Under the pieces are notes generated by a model. It made no database searches and had not been told where the DNA came from. It was given only the letters and a program-made list of their open reading frames with translations. Shown here piece after piece: positions 1,044-25,572 of a stretch of 37,291 bases of DNA. This DNA comes from a virus: positions 1 through 37,291 of the IMG/VR virus record IMGVR_UViG_3300003321_000307. One strand, 5' to 3'. A program made the translations under genes and the position numbers. Every line of letters begins with the position of its first letter. The stretch's first letter is position 1.

Positions 1044-1191
1044 TGTGAGAGTTTATGTGAGGTTTGATCAAGCCCCTCTTCGGATGGGCTTTTTCTTTTA
1101 ATGGGTTACAAAACTTGCACCAATATTGACCGTTTATAATAATTAAATTATACTTACAATTGGGGCATATAGGGATGTACTGTATATTCAT
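1012..1191 (-). CDS. Small zinc-ribbon-like protein, 59 residues
   Basis: The start ATG (1189-1191) overlaps the endolysin stop codon in an ATGA junction, an arrangement repeated throughout this phage, which argues for real translation. The product begins MNIQYIPICPNCKYNLIIIN and has two Cys pairs, CPNC and WCKFC, about 16 residues apart, as in a single zinc ribbon. The C-terminal half is basic and histidine-rich. The frame reads through the opposite strand of the Mom terminator and overlaps the last 32 nt of the Mom-like gene, so the functional part may be only the first 35 residues. Function unknown. Confidence 0.5.
   Translation of the reverse strand: MNIQYIPICPNCKYNLIIINGQYWCKFCNPLKEKAHPKRGLIKPHINSHISEEYRLISF
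1070..1096 (+). terminator. Rho-independent terminator of the Mom-like gene
   Basis: AAGCCC (1070-1075) pairs with GGGCTT (1086-1091). A further two base pairs close a TTCG tetraloop, and a T run follows. It lies 27 nt after the stop codon at 1043. Confidence 0.75.
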
Positions 1192-1838
1192 GGGGCTGCA
1201 TTGGCGAGGGATTTTAATTCATCAAAAGTACCATTAAACAAATCCAAATCCAAATCCTTATTTGGCCCCCCATACTGCGAATACTGCCAAAAAGTATACC
1301 GATCAAAGCCTTTCGGCAATCCCGGTTCATGATTTTGGTATGATGCTATCCATAATGGAAACCGTGTGAACCGCTGATCATTATTCAGATATTCCGCAAA
1401 ATAATTAGCGTAGGAATAGATTATAGGCGTTCTGCCGGTCTTTTCTTCCACGATGGATAACCATTCCAACGCTGACTCAATCCAGTTACTACGGTTAGCT
1501 AAAACCTGTTTATTAAGGCGTAAGCTATCTGCTGCATCCTTACCAACCAAATCCTCAATATCCAATATGGGGGGCAAGCATCCCGGTGCACCGAAATCAA
1601 CGCCTCGAGATAAATAATTTTCAGCCTGTATTCTAGCTTCGCCCAATCCGAAAAAATGATAACAACCACGGACTTTATTTGTTCCGTGTTTTAGGATTTG
1701 CCAGTTAGTATTAAAAACCGGGTCCCTGAATGTTTCGTTTTGCGTGGCCTTGCAGATAATAAAATCGAATGCCGATTTGACTATATCGAATGTCGAATTG
1801 TTGTGGGATATATCGCAGCCTAGCGGTCTGGTGTCCAT
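1188..1838 (-). CDS. GH25-family endolysin (lysozyme)
   Basis: The 216-residue product covers one GH25 (Chalaropsis-type) muramidase domain. Characteristic segments are GCDISHNNS with the conserved Asp9, ICKATQ, CYHFF near residue 60, PPILDIED with the expected catalytic Asp93/Glu95 pair, and the C-terminal YTFWQYSQYG strand. The family cleaves the MurNAc-GlcNAc bond of peptidoglycan. No signal peptide or cell-wall-binding domain is present, so it would depend on a holin. Candidate holins are the small membrane proteins encoded nearby on the same strand. The ATGA junction at its stop couples it to a zinc-ribbon protein. Length and motifs fit a single-domain phage endolysin. Confidence 0.93.
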   Translation of the reverse strand: MDTRPLGCDISHNNSTFDIVKSAFDFIICKATQNETFRDPVFNTNWQILKHGTNKVRGCYHFFGLGEARIQAENYLSRGVDFGAPGCLPPILDIEDLVGKDAADSLRLNKQVLANRSNWIESALEWLSIVEEKTGRTPIIYSYANYFAEYLNNDQRFTRFPLWIASYQNHEPGLPKGFDRYTFWQYSQYGGPNKDLDLDLFNGTFDELKSLANAAP

Positions 1839-2068: not shown

Positions 2069-2383
2069 ATGAAAGTCTTAACAGAAGGACACAAATACGA
2101 GTTGTCCAATTTTGAAAACAAAGAGCAAAAAGGTCAAATTATTCAATTTATTGAAAAAGTACCATCGGAAGAAGTCCCAGCCATACTTATTACAGTTAAC
2201 GATGGTACAACTAATGAAGAACTTATAGAGGTTCTTATAAATCGGCTTCAGTACCTAAATGGCAAATTTCCATGTCGCGAAAATTCAGTTGCCCTAACCA
2301 AATTGGATGAGGCATTATTGTGGTTGAATAAACGAACCGCAGACCGAATTAAGCGAAATGTAGAAGGGAAAAATATAGCCTAA
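2069..2383 (+). CDS. Acb2/Tad1-like cyclic-nucleotide sponge (anti-CBASS/anti-Thoeris)
   Basis: The 104-residue protein has a short beta-rich N-terminus (residues 8-30, YELSNFENKEQKGQIIQFIE), the segment TVNDGTTNEELIEVLINRL, and a helical hairpin ending in CRENSVALTKLDEALLWLNK then RTADRIKRNVEGK. This last part (residues 69-101) matches the Acb2/Tad1 hairpin domain, whose known members bind and sequester the cyclic oligonucleotides or gcADPR-type signals of CBASS and Thoeris. No enzyme motif is present, as expected for a sponge. The gene is monocistronic on the plus strand with a strong terminator after it, facing away from the surrounding lysis and tail genes. Family is likely; the ligand is unknown. 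Other members of this domain family have no assigned role. Confidence 0.75.
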   Translation: MKVLTEGHKYELSNFENKEQKGQIIQFIEKVPSEEVPAILITVNDGTTNEELIEVLINRLQYLNGKFPCRENSVALTKLDEALLWLNKRTADRIKRNVEGKNIA

Positions 2384-2411: not shown

Positions 2412-2435
2412 AGCCTCACTACGGTGGGGCTTTTT
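2412..2435 (+). terminator. Terminator of the Acb2/Tad1-like gene
   Basis: AGCCTCAC and GTGGGGCT form an 8-bp stem with one G-U pair around a TACG tetraloop, followed by TTTTT. It lies 28 nt after the stop at 2383. Confidence 0.85.
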
Positions 2436-2439
2436 CATT

Positions 2440-2562
2440 TCACAGATACCAATAAAGTTCAATAATCAAAAACACCACCGTCACCCCCAATCCCCAATAG
2501 AGCAGCCTATTCGGAATGCCGATATAAAATGTTTTGATGATATTGATGACGAGGCGGATCAT
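2440..2562 (-). CDS. 40-residue single-span membrane protein
   Basis: The start ATG (2560-2562) overlaps the stop of the upstream beta-helix gene in an ATGA junction, and TGA lies at 2440-2442. The product starts MIRLVINIIKTFYIGIPNRL and continues with a hydrophobic span (WGLGVTVVFLIIELYW) to the C-terminus. It probably inserts with the basic amphipathic N-terminus in the cytoplasm. It is the last gene of the beta-helix pair's transcript and meets the Acb2-like gene's terminator head-on. No family recognised; a membrane role accompanying the exported beta-helix proteins or lysis is conceivable. Confidence 0.6.
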   Translation of the reverse strand: MIRLVINIIKTFYIGIPNRLLYWGLGVTVVFLIIELYWYL

Positions 2563-3872
2563 TGCAGTTTTACCGTTCCTCCGGGGACGACAAGGTAAGC
2601 CGAAGCCGCATTAATAGTGATCGATACGGACGGCATAGACGACCCAGTACCGTTTGAAGCCGTTATAGTATACGAACCGGATGACGTACCAGTAGGTACC
2701 CCGCTGATCTGTCCGTTAGCCGTGTTAAACACCAATCCCGTAGGCAATGATGGGCTGATTCCCCACGAGGTAACAACACCACCAGTGTTAACAGGATTCA
2801 TTGCCGTTATAAACTCACCCACGTTACCGATTATAGATGATGGCGAATAGGTTACACTTGGTGAACCTGGAGCAGTACAAGCTATACCAAATAAAGGAAT
2901 CGGTAATAATGCTGCAGAAAGCGTATCATCACTTACATTCGAAGCCCAACCTTGAGGTAATGGATTTCCGCCCCCGGATGAATAATAAAAATCTAAACGA
3001 GAACCAGAACGATTAAACCACTTTGCGCGATTAAAACTAACCGTATCATTAAAGGGTGTACCGCCTCCAAAGTTACCGCTCGCAAATCCCTCATAAGTAT
3101 AAGCTGTTTGAACACCGAAAGCCTTGTTGTAAGATACTCTTATATTATTACCGCCAACAAGCTGACCGCCTTGCGCACCTGAATTGACGCAAATATTATA
3201 TTCAATTACTTGCCAGGATCCACCAACATCGCCACCGATAAAGGCAGACTTCCCGGCATCTAAAGTACTCCCACCCTCGATACAATTACCAATACACTGC
3301 ATTTGACTTGTTGGCGTTCCGTTAGACTGGTAAAAACTTAATATATCACCAACATCATCTGATATTACCGTAGTCAGGCAGTCGTTATAATTCATTTGAT
3401 TTCCGGGGCCAGTTATGTTATTCCACTGGATATGACTACCACCGCCGTTTGGGTGCCCAGCAGCATCTTTTATGTTGTAGAAACGGTTGTAGTTAATATG
3501 TATATTGGTATCTCGTTCAACTATAGCAACGTTACCTGAATTGACAATATTAACCCCTCTGTAGCTTGAGTCAATGCGATTGTACATGATCGTTATATTC
3601 TTACAATCCTTTCCAATATGGATAGCTCCGGTTGCTTTGTGGGAGTTTTTAAGATAGCAGTGAGTTATGGTTACATTCTTAGTTCCGTTCGGTATGTCAA
3701 TACAATTATTGTTCGTATTCCCCGCGTCTATAAACAGCGCGTCATAAGTATGGTTTGAAAGTGCAGTGAAATGAGTTGTTGTCGTTCTTGTTATTCCGCA
3801 AAATGAACTGTCGCTGGTTGCTTGCGCGAAAGCAAAAACGGGGGATAAGAATAAGATGAAAAACCATTTCAT
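2559..3872 (-). CDS. Secreted-type beta-helix protein with putative Ig domain (tail spike-like)
   Basis: The 437-residue product begins with a Sec signal peptide (MKWFFILFLSPVFAFAQ, likely cleaved after AFA). Residues 60 to about 310 form a right-handed beta-helix with NosD/CASH-type rungs, recognisable as N-I-T-I-x-Y-N-R and similar repeats. After a Pro-rich linker, residues 340-425 look like a putative-Ig (He_PIG) domain with SLPTGLVFNTANGQISGVP. The C-terminus ends VVPGGTVKLQ. It is a diverged tandem copy of the neighbour 3872-4924 (shared SFYxSxGTPTS, GGSTxxAGKSA and NxAFG blocks). Beta-helix folds in phages usually bind or cut polysaccharides, but no catalytic residue is evident. A signal peptide on a virion protein is unusual. 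Confidence 0.75.
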   Translation of the reverse strand: MKWFFILFLSPVFAFAQATSDSSFCGITRTTTTHFTALSNHTYDALFIDAGNTNNNCIDIPNGTKNVTITHCYLKNSHKATGAIHIGKDCKNITIMYNRIDSSYRGVNIVNSGNVAIVERDTNIHINYNRFYNIKDAAGHPNGGGSHIQWNNITGPGNQMNYNDCLTTVISDDVGDILSFYQSNGTPTSQMQCIGNCIEGGSTLDAGKSAFIGGDVGGSWQVIEYNICVNSGAQGGQLVGGNNIRVSYNKAFGVQTAYTYEGFASGNFGGGTPFNDTVSFNRAKWFNRSGSRLDFYYSSGGGNPLPQGWASNVSDDTLSAALLPIPLFGIACTAPGSPSVTYSPSSIIGNVGEFITAMNPVNTGGVVTSWGISPSLPTGLVFNTANGQISGVPTGTSSGSYTITASNGTGSSMPSVSITINAASAYLVVPGGTVKLQ

Positions 3873-5357: not shown

Positions 5358-5759
5358 TCATGCTTCGAGTAACTGAGTCCTGTTGATTATGCTTGGCAAA
5401 AATGATTTCACTGAGTCTCTTATTTTATTGAGCCAGTTTTGGCTGATTGTATCCTTTTCAATCACCTCATTTACCGCCAATGGAAATAAAGGTAATAAAA
5501 AATCTACAGAACAATATGCGGTGATTACAATGATATACACACCCTTGCTGATAGACCGAAAATATTTTAGCGTGTCGTATAAGTCATAACCTGGAACTCT
5601 GGCATCTGTTATTACCATGTCGGTTTCTTTGGAGAATGCGTTACGAAAGTCATCGCCGTTGGTGAAAGTTTTAAGGTCGAATGAATCGCCATTGAATAGA
5701 TCCTTAAGCCATTCGAGTATTATTTCTTCATCATCGAGGGCGTTGATGTGGATTTTCAT
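5358..5759 (-). CDS. Receiver-only response regulator (CheY-like)
   Basis: The 133-residue protein is a complete REC domain with every hallmark residue: an acidic pair Asp9/Asp10 (NALDDEE), phospho-acceptor Asp52 in VITDARVPGYD, Thr80 in IIVITAY, and Lys102 in VIEKD. No DNA-binding or enzymatic output domain follows; the C-terminal 25 residues are helical. The start overlaps the stop of the membrane/coiled-coil gene 5756-6064 (ATGA), and a second membrane protein starts 1 nt downstream, so it is embedded in the lysis-region transcript. It could be phosphorylated by, or titrate phosphate from, a host histidine kinase. Both ideas are inference; the fold call is firm. Confidence 0.85.
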   Translation of the reverse strand: MKIHINALDDEEIILEWLKDLFNGDSFDLKTFTNGDDFRNAFSKETDMVITDARVPGYDLYDTLKYFRSISKGVYIIVITAYCSVDFLLPLFPLAVNEVIEKDTISQNWLNKIRDSVKSFLPSIINRTQLLEA

Positions 5760-21685: not shown

Positions 21686-22663
21686 TTACTTTATCTTCTT
21701 AAACCATTCATCAAATCTTACTAACTCCTCCGCGCTTTTTACAGACACATTAGCTGCCCTATCATAACTAACTTCACTTTGCCATTGCCACGCTTGTGGG
21801 TTCTCCATCAAATATACAATTGTTTCACAATATTTTGTAATATTATTCCGGTCGATATACAACGCAGATCCGCTCAGATTCTCCTGTATCCCCTGAGTTG
21901 GATGAGCAATAACAGGGATGCCGTATTGCATGGCTTCAATTGCGCATTGGCTGAATGATTCAAATTCTGACGGAACGAGTAAGATGCGAGTATTGGCGTA
22001 CACGGTATTCATATCAATTCCGTTAGGTAAGTAATCCATATTCGGTAAATGCGCCTCTATCTGATCGCCATACCCGCCGAATATACCCATGAACTCATAC
22101 TGTGGCAAGCGACTTGCTATTTCAGCGAATATGTGACCACCCTTATTGTGATTACAATTTATGAGCGTTATCTTATTGCCCGTTGATCGCCCAGATACAG
22201 GAGGTAACATTGGATGCAATACAGTTCCATTAAACTGGCTAAAAGTACTAAATAGGTCATCCCGCAATTGATAGGAATTATAAATTATATGCGCACTGCC
22301 AGGTTCGCAATGTCTAACTGCATACATCTTGGAATTATTATGCGCAATGAAAATCAATGGCTTATTATGCTGCTTTGCTTTATTGAATCCATAGCCAGTT
22401 CCGATCAACTGCGTTATTACCACATCGCACCATTTGAAATGCTCATTATTACGCGTGAATATTTCGATGTTTTCGCCCTGCGGATGGATTTCTATGCCAT
22501 CGTGAATATATGGTTGTTTGTTCCCGGCAATAATTCGTATTTCGTGGTTTTTTCGGAGATGATTTACCAAGCGACTTAAATATATTTCTCCGCCAGCAAT
22601 GCCTGAAGCAAACTCTTCATGTTGATGAAACCAGTTATAGGGGCAAATAACAATTTTACTCAT
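21686..22663 (-). CDS. GT4-family glycosyltransferase (GT-B fold)
   Basis: From ATG 22661-22663 (MSKIVICPYNWFHQHEEFAS) the 325-residue product has a GT-B N-terminal domain with GIAGGEIYLSRLVNHLRK, a donor-side INCNHNKGGHIFAEI, and the C-terminal EX7E motif within PSEFESFSQCAIEAMQYGIP followed by VIAHPTQGIQENL. This is the signature of retaining nucleotide-sugar glycosyltransferases. An upstream ATG at 22708 would add 15 residues and include a terminator hairpin, so it is rejected. No signal peptide or membrane span: a cytoplasmic enzyme. Its place inside the connector operon points to virion glycosylation or alternatively to host surface modification. Confidence 0.88.
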   Translation of the reverse strand: MSKIVICPYNWFHQHEEFASGIAGGEIYLSRLVNHLRKNHEIRIIAGNKQPYIHDGIEIHPQGENIEIFTRNNEHFKWCDVVITQLIGTGYGFNKAKQHNKPLIFIAHNNSKMYAVRHCEPGSAHIIYNSYQLRDDLFSTFSQFNGTVLHPMLPPVSGRSTGNKITLINCNHNKGGHIFAEIASRLPQYEFMGIFGGYGDQIEAHLPNMDYLPNGIDMNTVYANTRILLVPSEFESFSQCAIEAMQYGIPVIAHPTQGIQENLSGSALYIDRNNITKYCETIVYLMENPQAWQWQSEVSYDRAANVSVKSAEELVRFDEWFKKIK

Positions 22664-22671
22664 ATATAATG

Positions 22672-22694
22672 AAAAAGGCCTGCCGAAGCAAGCC
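22672..22694 (-). terminator. Terminator-like hairpin in the leader of the GT4 gene
   Basis: On the minus strand GGCTTGC and GCAGGCC pair (one G-U) around a TTCG tetraloop, followed by T5. The T-tract ends 9 nt before the GT4 start codon. Unless bypassed, it would cut off the connector and tail genes from upstream transcription. Confidence 0.8.
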
Positions 22695-22736
22695 ATAAGG
22701 TTTAACAAAGCCGCTCTAAAAGTTTTATAATTTGCT

Positions 22737-22955
22737 TTAAGATGCGGCGGATGCGTTTGGGTCTGTTACCTCAACGGTTACTGAGCTTTGGTAAGCGGTG
22801 ATGGCTGCCATTTTTCCTTCCAGTTCGGTTACAATTGCCTGTGCCTGAGTGCCCAAATCATTGAATTTTGCAATTGACGCGTTCGCGTCATCTACCAACG
22901 CAGCAAGACCGCTGTCATCGGTGGTAATGGTTAATGTCTTTAAAATCTGTGCCAT
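22737..22955 (-). CDS. Small Ala-rich coiled protein, 72 residues
   Basis: MAQILKTLTITTDDSGLAAL begins a protein with a short strand then one long helix (DANASIAKFNDLGTQAQAIV to KMAAITAYQSS) and a C-terminal TVEVTDPNASAAS. It has no charge clusters or signals. Its place between glycosyltransferases and connectors would suit a small head decoration or fibre protein and a glycan acceptor rich in Ser/Thr, but this is speculation. A terminator hairpin follows it. Confidence 0.55.
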   Translation of the reverse strand: MAQILKTLTITTDDSGLAALVDDANASIAKFNDLGTQAQAIVTELEGKMAAITAYQSSVTVEVTDPNASAAS

Positions 22956-22980
22956 AAGTTTTTTATTTTAAAGGTAATGA

Positions 22981-24873
22981 TTAACTATGAAGTATGTATG
23001 GTTTACTGTGCAAAAATTGTGTATAAGAAAACCCATTTTCGCCCCATAACCCGTTTCTTGAATACAGATGTATTGGCATATCCAACTTCAAAGACTCAAG
23101 GATATAGAGCAGGCTGGTATTTGCACTGTGTATCTCCTTTGCCCCCTCAATAACTCCGACCCAATCCAGCATAGTAAATCCTTGCCGCGCTGACATTTCA
23201 ACTATCGGCAACTTTGAGTCGATTTGAGGTGTTATCTGATATTGCGCCTGATTGCCATAGTATCTATTAACCAGAATGTACTTTTTGGGCAATCCTTTCA
23301 TTAATTCAGCTTCAGCATTTCGATCTCTCGCCCATGTTAACTCCCTGAACATTTCCCAACGGTGCCCGTATAATGAATATTTCGCCTGCATGCACATATC
23401 AAGACCTTTCCCCATATTCTCGCTTGCAAACCGATATGGGATCCACTGCCCGTCGATAGTCTGTAACGGCATGCGCGATTCATAAGGGAATTCATGTTTT
23501 GTCTTATCAACAAAGTTTATATCTGGCCAATGCTTTTTTAATGATAAATATTCAGGATTAACAGGCCAAATGCAATCATTACCCTCATCCATCAGGGCGC
23601 GAACTAATGGCACAAGCCAAATTATATCCCCCAAACTTGCAAACTGACCGATTATATATCTTCTTCCTGTAGATTTTGGTTTAATCATAGTTTTATTTTT
23701 ATGAACCCCGAATTGATTTGTTAATTTTTTATGCGGTTGCCGGTAGCCCTCATAACTGAATTTATCTGCCACTTCATCTGGTGCGAACTTCATACCGTGA
23801 GCTTCAAGTTCTTTTCGATAAGTTCGGCAAATATGATGATCTTCAGGATGTGTTAATTTGCAGATACTGGCACTTAATTCCATGAGCCGACGAGACCGGA
23901 GGCTAAATCCGCCATTGCCAACATTCATACTGTCATTATACCACCAGGTAGCGCCGATATAGTCATATTGAAGGAACTCGTCAGACCATGCTTGCCAGTT
24001 GTTCACAAAGCCGTCATGTTGGAAGATAAGACAATGTTCAGTCTTGACATATTTATAGGCCTCCCGCACCAAATATTCGCTGTATGCTTCTTTTGATCTA
24101 ATATCAGGATGCAATAATTGGATGTCGCCGAACTTTATAAACTCGGTGCATTTTTTTAAGGCTGTTTGTATATTATCAGGACGGTTGTCGACGCATAGGA
24201 GAGTTACATCTGGTAAATGCAAAGGAACAAAATTAACGGCAACATCTGGTTGTTCTGTATGATTCATTGACGAGTCGAAGCCGATATGTTCTATGACGGA
24301 TTCTTTGAGGCATAACGCTCCGCCTGCACTTATACATGAGTTGTGATCCCAATTCCCTATTTTTAGTAGCGAAGGTTTAACGTACTGATTATATGTATAT
24401 TTGTCTATGCAAAAATTAATGCCTCCAACTGATTCTTTGCAATACAAACCATTTGCTTCGTATTTTATTTTGTGCCTATCAGTTCCGTTTGCATTTTTTG
24501 TTACGGAATGGAATCCGGTTAAAATACAGCCTCCCAATTCTGGATAGTTGCTTATTAATCTATCAACAAAATCATTTCTAACCAACGCGTCTGAGTCCAA
24601 GTTGATAACAATATCGTTTCGTTGGAATAGTTGCTCGTAACCGATCAATAATGAATCTTTAATGCCCTTGTTTTCTAATTTACCTGTCAGGTTTTTATGA
24701 GAGTCTTTAAAATTAAAGCCGTCAATAAGTTGCAACGTTTCAGGATTGGTACTAGCGTCGTCAACGATCATTAGTTCATCAATTCGCGACAAATCAGCGC
24801 GTCTTAATGAGTCAAGGCATTGCTTTAGGTATTGGGGGCGGTTATAGGTGCATATTAGTAAAGCGACTTTCAT
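22981..24873 (-). CDS. Three-domain glycosyltransferase (GT2 + DUF5672-like + GT9-like)
   Basis: 630 residues. Residues 1-205 are a GT2 (GT-A) domain with ALLICTYNRPQYLKQCLDSL, the ELMIVDDAST strand and the metal-binding NLDSDA motif (Asp93, Asp95). Residues 222-395 resemble DUF5672 transferases (LIFQHDGFVNNWQAWSDEFL, then GATWW and NGGFSLRSRR). Residues 405-630 look like a heptosyltransferase/GT9-type GT-B domain (IIGQFASLGDIIWLVPLVRA). No membrane segment. The start overlaps the methyltransferase stop by 4 nt. Such fused enzymes can build a short oligosaccharide in sequence. The target is not evident from sequence. Confidence 0.8.
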   Translation of the reverse strand: MKVALLICTYNRPQYLKQCLDSLRRADLSRIDELMIVDDASTNPETLQLIDGFNFKDSHKNLTGKLENKGIKDSLLIGYEQLFQRNDIVINLDSDALVRNDFVDRLISNYPELGGCILTGFHSVTKNANGTDRHKIKYEANGLYCKESVGGINFCIDKYTYNQYVKPSLLKIGNWDHNSCISAGGALCLKESVIEHIGFDSSMNHTEQPDVAVNFVPLHLPDVTLLCVDNRPDNIQTALKKCTEFIKFGDIQLLHPDIRSKEAYSEYLVREAYKYVKTEHCLIFQHDGFVNNWQAWSDEFLQYDYIGATWWYNDSMNVGNGGFSLRSRRLMELSASICKLTHPEDHHICRTYRKELEAHGMKFAPDEVADKFSYEGYRQPHKKLTNQFGVHKNKTMIKPKSTGRRYIIGQFASLGDIIWLVPLVRALMDEGNDCIWPVNPEYLSLKKHWPDINFVDKTKHEFPYESRMPLQTIDGQWIPYRFASENMGKGLDMCMQAKYSLYGHRWEMFRELTWARDRNAEAELMKGLPKKYILVNRYYGNQAQYQITPQIDSKLPIVEMSARQGFTMLDWVGVIEGAKEIHSANTSLLYILESLKLDMPIHLYSRNGLWGENGFSYTQFLHSKPYILHS

Positions 24874-25370
24874 TTCATCTTCTCACAAATTACCACAAAG
24901 CTATTATTATAATCAACCCCGCTTACGTAAACCTTATGTCCTAATTTTTTCAGATATACTTCAATTTCGCAGCCCTCAAATTCATGCACATGCTTTCTAT
25001 TGCTCCATACCTGCCAGTATTCCTGAGATTTATGAGGCAAGTATAAAAACAGGATGCCACCGATCTTTATTTTACTAAGCCAATAATCTAATACATTGCA
25101 CCAGTTCTCTTTTACGTGTTCCAAACAATGAGAGCTGTGAATATAATCAAACTCGCCTATCGGCAAATGCATCGCATGATACTTACTATCAATTGAGGGC
25201 TCGATACCAATAGCACCGGGTAGCATCCATTTCTCTTTATAATACCCCACATCAAGGCCATTGCCTTCGCAGTAATACTGTGCCAATGGCCTCACCCATA
25301 AGCTTGCACCGCCTATTGCCTGATGTGAAGGATATGATTTTCCGTTAAATTCAATGAAGTTTAGGGGCAT
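24870..25370 (-). CDS. SAM-dependent methyltransferase (class I, Methyltransf_11-like)
   Basis: From ATG 25368-25370, 1 nt after the upstream stop, the 166-residue product starts MPLNFIEFNGKSYPSHQAIG. Motif I is a compact GNGLDVGYYKEKW; the acidic IGIEPSID follows; motif IV is FDYIHSSHCLEHV; and IKIGGILFLYLPHK forms the post-motif strand. A longer start at 25457 would run through the RHH gene in another frame. This type often methylates sugars or small molecules; with glycosyltransferases beside it, O-methylation of a glycan is a reasonable inference. Confidence 0.8.
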   Translation of the reverse strand: MPLNFIEFNGKSYPSHQAIGGASLWVRPLAQYYCEGNGLDVGYYKEKWMLPGAIGIEPSIDSKYHAMHLPIGEFDYIHSSHCLEHVKENWCNVLDYWLSKIKIGGILFLYLPHKSQEYWQVWSNRKHVHEFEGCEIEVYLKKLGHKVYVSGVDYNNSFVVICEKMK

Positions 25371-25371
25371 G

Positions 25372-25572
25372 TTAAAAATCTGTTGCGTTGTCGTTTGGAT
25401 GATTATCTCTGCCATAGTTCTTTTTCGGAGTATGTCTAACTTCCTGCTTCTGCACATGCTTAGTCAGCACATTATTACAATGACTCGATAATGATCGCTT
25501 ATCTTCTTTGGCCTGCTCTTTCAGGGCTTCGATAGTCTCATCTTCCACCCTTATTTGCAATGGTTTTTTCAT
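25372..25572 (-). CDS. Ribbon-helix-helix DNA-binding protein
   Basis: 66 residues: basic strand KKPLQIRVEDETIEALKEQ, second helix RSLSSHCNNVLTKHVQKQ, and a basic disordered C-terminus (HTPKKNYGRDNH). The strand-helix-helix layout matches Arc/MetJ-type regulators. No toxin gene is paired with it. It is the first gene of the glycosylation unit, right after its promoter, and a 19-bp palindrome in that promoter is a likely autoregulatory operator. The transcript appears to start at or beside its ATG. Confidence 0.7.
   Translation of the reverse strand: MKKPLQIRVEDETIEALKEQAKEDKRSLSSHCNNVLTKHVQKQEVRHTPKKNYGRDNHPNDNATDF

Follow-up and report, generated by a model that had tools for sequence, protein, structure and literature searches.

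A compact Tad1-family protein and candidate immune-signal sponge encoded by a phage of probable Bacteroidota hosts

A short gene in a viral DNA record (plus strand, 2069–2383) very likely encodes an oligomeric Tad1-family immune-signal sponge for cADPR isomers and/or CBASS cyclic nucleotides. Our analysis directly supports its coding status, its homology, the predicted fold, the phage origin and the conservation of residues in helix 2 and the tail; oligomerization, ligand binding and immune inhibition we infer. The 104-aa product combines a predicted N-terminal β-sheet with a C-terminal two-helix hairpin, both modeled at high confidence, and would assemble into an oligomer, hexamers of three dimers being characteristic of Tad1. 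During infection, such a sponge would hold host second messengers without cleaving them, the candidate ligands being the cADPR isomers that TIR proteins of Thoeris produce, the cyclic di- and trinucleotides of CBASS, or both. With its messenger sequestered, the corresponding effector would stay inactive, and the gene would serve as an accessory counter-defense gene. The likeliest role of the protein is the same sequestration reported for other Tad1 proteins, in which six pockets serve both gcADPR and cyclic dinucleotides, while two trimer interfaces take up cyclic trinucleotides (PMC12043709). Tad1 alleles can also trigger the Panoptes guard system (PMC12657218).

The window, by which we mean the whole 37,291-base stretch that was analyzed, is a virus record with recognizable portal, large terminase, major head and endolysin genes, and nearly all of its genes lie on the minus strand. 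The tad1-like gene sits on the opposite strand between the endolysin and tail genes, flanked by a GH25 endolysin (1188–1838, minus strand) and a putative Ig-domain gene (2559–3872, minus strand). The gene and its parts are as follows:

2069–2383, plus strand: tad1-like gene; ORF with an ATG start, 104 aa, matching PF24729, PHROG 2428 and Tad1 PDB entries (by sequence and fold), with a model pLDDT of 93.8
2069–2203, plus strand: N-terminal β domain, residues 1–45, from AlphaFold/DSSP and conservation counts; subfamily motif GHKYELxNFEN...QxIQFIEK
2204–2221, plus strand: GTTNEE loop, residues 46–51, at the beginning of helix 1; unchanged in 44/44 subfamily rows
2213–2353, plus strand: C-terminal two-helix hairpin (residues 49–66 and 70–95) with a PCREN turn and KRTxDRxxR; PF24729 on residues 53–88, helices from DSSP
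2354–2380, plus strand: C-terminal tail RNVEGKNIA, residues 96–104; every aligned row has V98 and E99
2412–2431, plus strand: hairpin resembling an intrinsic terminator, with a T-run after it, 28 bp past the stop codon; 8 pairs, 5 of them G-C; tail TTTTCATTTC

Judged by its sequence relatives, this ORF is a real gene, far beyond chance, given 80 kept viral relatives and the match to Pfam PF24729. Residues 81–93 are EALLWLNKRTADR and residues 96–101 are RNVEGK, exactly the hairpin sequence and protein end that a sequence-only reading of this DNA had reported for the same ORF. That reading had also described the gene as monocistronic and opposite the lysis genes. It does stand alone against the GH25 endolysin and its minus-strand neighbors and has its own terminator-like hairpin, but a second plus-strand gene lies nearby, at ~450–1043. 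This Mom-like DNA-modification gene (PF25680, E 5e-28; PHROG, E 2e-34) is a predicted anti-restriction gene.

The sole real Pfam match of the 104-aa protein is PF24729 (Acb2_Tad1_hairpin), at 27.3 bits, narrowly passing the gathering cut-off of 27 bits. Residues 6–102 match PHROG 2428 (E 2e-24), which Tad1 of Bacillus phage SBSphiJ7 matches over its full length (E 8e-47). A PDB sequence search returned Thoeris anti-defense 1 entries (8kbb, E 2e-13; 7uav, E 2e-11), and the Tad1 E-value improved to 1e-20 when the family profile was used as the query. SBSphiJ7 Tad1 is also matched by tblastn (E 1e-15), and the two proteins share a family-level layout and 59% identity across the C-terminal 59 aa. 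The SBSphiJ7 protein is longer, however (142 aa versus 104 aa); BLAST finds no alignment for the N-terminal half, and its helix-1 loop reads NGVMNED in place of DGTTNEE. An HTH_40 match to our protein (E 0.14) is at chance level, and the model has strands in that region.

The AlphaFold2 model was built from an alignment of 49 rows and has a mean pLDDT of 93.8. DSSP assigns strands at residues 2–5, 9–11, 24–27, 29–32 and 40–44, followed by helices at 49–66 and 70–95. In a Foldseek search of the PDB, all 15 matches at E ≤ 0.001 were cbTad1 or CmTad1, each at a probability of 1.00, with TM-scores by query length of 0.62–0.72, rmsd values of 3.5–4.9 Å and up to 103 alignment columns; the first match beyond the Tad1 set had an E-value of 0.35. 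These two proteins, cbTad1 from a C. botulinum prophage (7uav, 7uaw, 8smd and 8kbe–8kbh) and CmTad1 (8kbb–8kbd), are therefore both the best PDB sequence matches and the only significant fold matches. They differ from the window protein in sequence (~30–36% identity) and in the length of the N-domain, which is shorter in the window protein; the rmsd of ~4 Å suggests that the two domains are somewhat differently arranged or that the N-domain itself differs. Homology to an experimentally defined Tad1, the predicted β-sheet and two-helix layout and viral encoding were all found for this protein.

Much of what the sequence-only reading had proposed agrees with these results. It had called the protein a cyclic-nucleotide sponge of the Acb2/Tad1 hairpin type, an identity that we can now narrow to Tad1, because PDB sequence search, Foldseek, PHROGs and profile–profile comparison all favor Tad1 over Acb2; the protein is a Tad1-family member and not an Acb2/Tad1 intermediate. 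The predicted structure does contain the hairpin whose absence was to refute that reading, and its matches are to Tad1. Profile comparison to both families, also suggested, gave an hhalign probability of 99.7% to SBSphiJ7 Tad1 and 26%, over 16 columns, to T4 Acb2. The short, β-rich N-terminus that had been predicted, unlike the all-helical Acb2, appears in the model as five short strands. It had been taken, however, as a departure from characterized members, whereas an N-terminal antiparallel β-sheet followed by two long C-terminal helices is the standard Tad1 architecture (PMC12043709). Since a β-rich N-terminus is the normal Tad1 signature, the argument for N-terminal novelty falls. The further suggestion made there, that the signal bound may not be one known from characterized members, is possible.

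Our scan of viral sequences found 104 relatives, of which 80 were kept; most are 42–75% identical to the window protein, with many full-length matches. Many are 100–110 aa long and carry the pattern GHKYELxNFEN..QxIQFIEK...TVNDGTTNEEV...FPCREN.IAITKLEEALMWLNKRTADR..R.VEGK. This compact subfamily (~100 aa) is widespread, occurring on diverse phage contigs and in three Bacteroidota genomes. T42, G46–E51 (GTTNEE), R89, V98 and E99 are invariant in its 44 aligned rows, and R93 is present in 43; over all 49 aligned rows, R89, V98 and E99 show no variation and R93 almost none. Other positions vary: position 62 is Y or F in 26 of the 44 subfamily rows and S, H, G or another residue in the remainder, and at position 72, 34 rows have N and 9 have T. 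The ligand range may therefore differ within the subfamily. The window protein has Y62 at the end of helix 1, N72 in the REN turn and the helix-2 arginines R89 and R93, all candidate pocket residues; the last three are identical in the aligned cbTad1. In the HMMER alignment, Y62 and N72 pair with an aromatic residue (F) and an N of cbTad1, which we take to be F82 and N92. In 2022 work by Leavitt et al., cbTad1 mutants at F82 and N92 are reported to lose gcADPR binding, for which both residues are described as essential.

Some subfamily members (L051 and L061) have no Pfam match at 0.01, and current annotation may miss such members that fall below the Pfam cut-off. Monophyly of the GTTNEE subfamily was considered, and the tree groups these rows together without resolving them as one clade, since SBSphiJ7 and other long branches are placed among them in an unresolved part. 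Separately, a Tad1-like hairpin occurs C-terminally behind other N-terminal sequence in longer phage or prophage proteins (L064, L066, L087 and L089), and the family profile also finds a C-terminal hairpin in gp184 (PDB 8y6v; E 4e-8).

Across ~45 loci of relatives, neighboring genes are diverse; the sole recurrent set belongs to one phage lineage (9 loci), and a search for a conserved operon partner found no constant one among these loci. A close Tad2 neighbor, encoding a functional analogue from an unrelated protein family (PF11195), was seen in just one case: in L021, only 7 bp separate the stop codon of the Tad1 homologue from the start of a Tad2-like gene (30.6 bits) downstream. The two genes form a two-sponge cassette (L021:3647–4325), which is followed by a polynucleotide-kinase-3′-phosphatase-like gene. 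At another locus, L060, a Tad2-like gene (PF11195, 50 bits) is located ~4 kb upstream of the homologue. No Tad2 was seen among the window proteins scanned.

For comparison with related phages, we chose seven records by their major head protein (62–79% identity). Neither Tad1 nor Mom was detected in these seven records, which may be incomplete, and this suggests that both are accessory anti-defense genes. The large tail gene is common to six of the seven records and the endolysin to two, and sister records carry other small genes near the endolysin. Relatives sought by endolysin yielded one weak match, and comparison of the window DNA with named phages gave no match. The window also encodes, among its late genes, a small response-regulator receiver-domain protein (5358–5759, minus strand; PF00072, E 1e-10). 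Adjoining the head genes are two glycosyltransferase-like proteins (GT4-type; GT2 plus DUF5672) and a methyltransferase (21686–25457, minus strand), a block that may modify the virion or the host surface.

The host of the window phage is probably a member of the Bacteroidota, because homologues occur in a Flavobacterium MAG, in Tenacibaculum ovolyticum and in a Cyclobacteriaceae MAG, the last with a reading-frame break in its sequence. Two of these three genomes with relatives encode defense components: a CBASS cyclase (PADLOC, E 9e-86) in Tenacibaculum and a ThsB-like TIR protein in the Flavobacterium MAG. These systems represent an opportunity for a sponge to act, with no causal link implied. 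Genes near the Tenacibaculum CBASS-type cyclase (L093:33–2373) encode a trypsin-like peptidase (PF13365) and an uncharacterized protein of 290 aa.

The PF24729 hairpin domain is common to Tad1 and Acb2, and on that basis the protein might be read as an all-helical sponge of the Acb2 type, directed against CBASS and extended at its N-terminus. We give this reading almost no credence. Similarity to Acb2 (T4 Vs.4, PaMx33 gp24) is alignable over 16 residues at most, T4 Acb2 belongs to PHROG 717 and not 2428, and Acb2 is placed on an extremely long branch of the tree. No Acb2 chain appears in the PDB sequence matches or among the 50 fold matches listed; moreover, Acb2 lacks a β domain, and the five strands of our model are at odds with an all-helical protomer of one short and two long helices. 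Profile comparison, PHROG and fold lead us to reject Acb2 membership. The Tad1 fold could instead have been reused outside defense, for example in a structural or regulatory phage protein, as the C-terminal hairpins of gp184, L064 and L066 illustrate. That outcome is improbable here: the protein of the window stands alone as Tad1 and is not part of a fusion, its gene looks accessory and occurs in unrelated phage contexts, and the L021 homologue has a Tad2-like neighbor.

A compact Tad1 with altered specificity, in which gcADPR binding has been lost and another Bacteroidota messenger is bound, such as CBASS cyclic dinucleotides (c-di-GMP, STING-type), is a possible but rather unlikely variant. 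STING-type CBASS is common in Bacteroidota. We speculate, tentatively and at similarly low odds, that the GTTNEE subfamily has shifted to a messenger that known Tad1 proteins bind poorly (c-di-GMP, another Bacteroidota CBASS cyclic dinucleotide or an undescribed TIR product), with position 62 tuning specificity. Several observations are consistent with such a shift, including the subfamily's own invariant GTTNEE loop, which corresponds to NGVMNED in SBSphiJ7 Tad1 and NGCQIDD in other Tad1 relatives. The position of the cbTad1 aromatic residue is often S, H, G or another residue while the helix-2 arginines are retained, and a CBASS cyclase is encoded in the Tenacibaculum genome that bears a homologue. 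In addition, CTN and gcADPR binding is reported to be common to Tad1 homologues, whereas the range of CDNs bound differs among them (PMC12043709). Against a change in the window protein itself, both the aromatic Y62 and N72 are retained.

A Tad1-family sponge in this phage would mean that signal sequestration of the Tad1 type also occurs in a large and apparently uncharacterized subfamily in phages of probable Bacteroidota hosts. CBASS and Thoeris are present in Bacteroidota, and few characterized counter-defense proteins are known there. The Tad1 kind is already known, and the ligand preference of the compact subfamily is the remaining point of interest. The tad1-like gene encodes no new kind of protein but is a promising candidate for binding assays, which its ligand preference merits; its interest is modest. 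Concrete residues for studying the evolution of sponge specificity are those of the conserved GTTNEE loop and of the aromatic position that varies.
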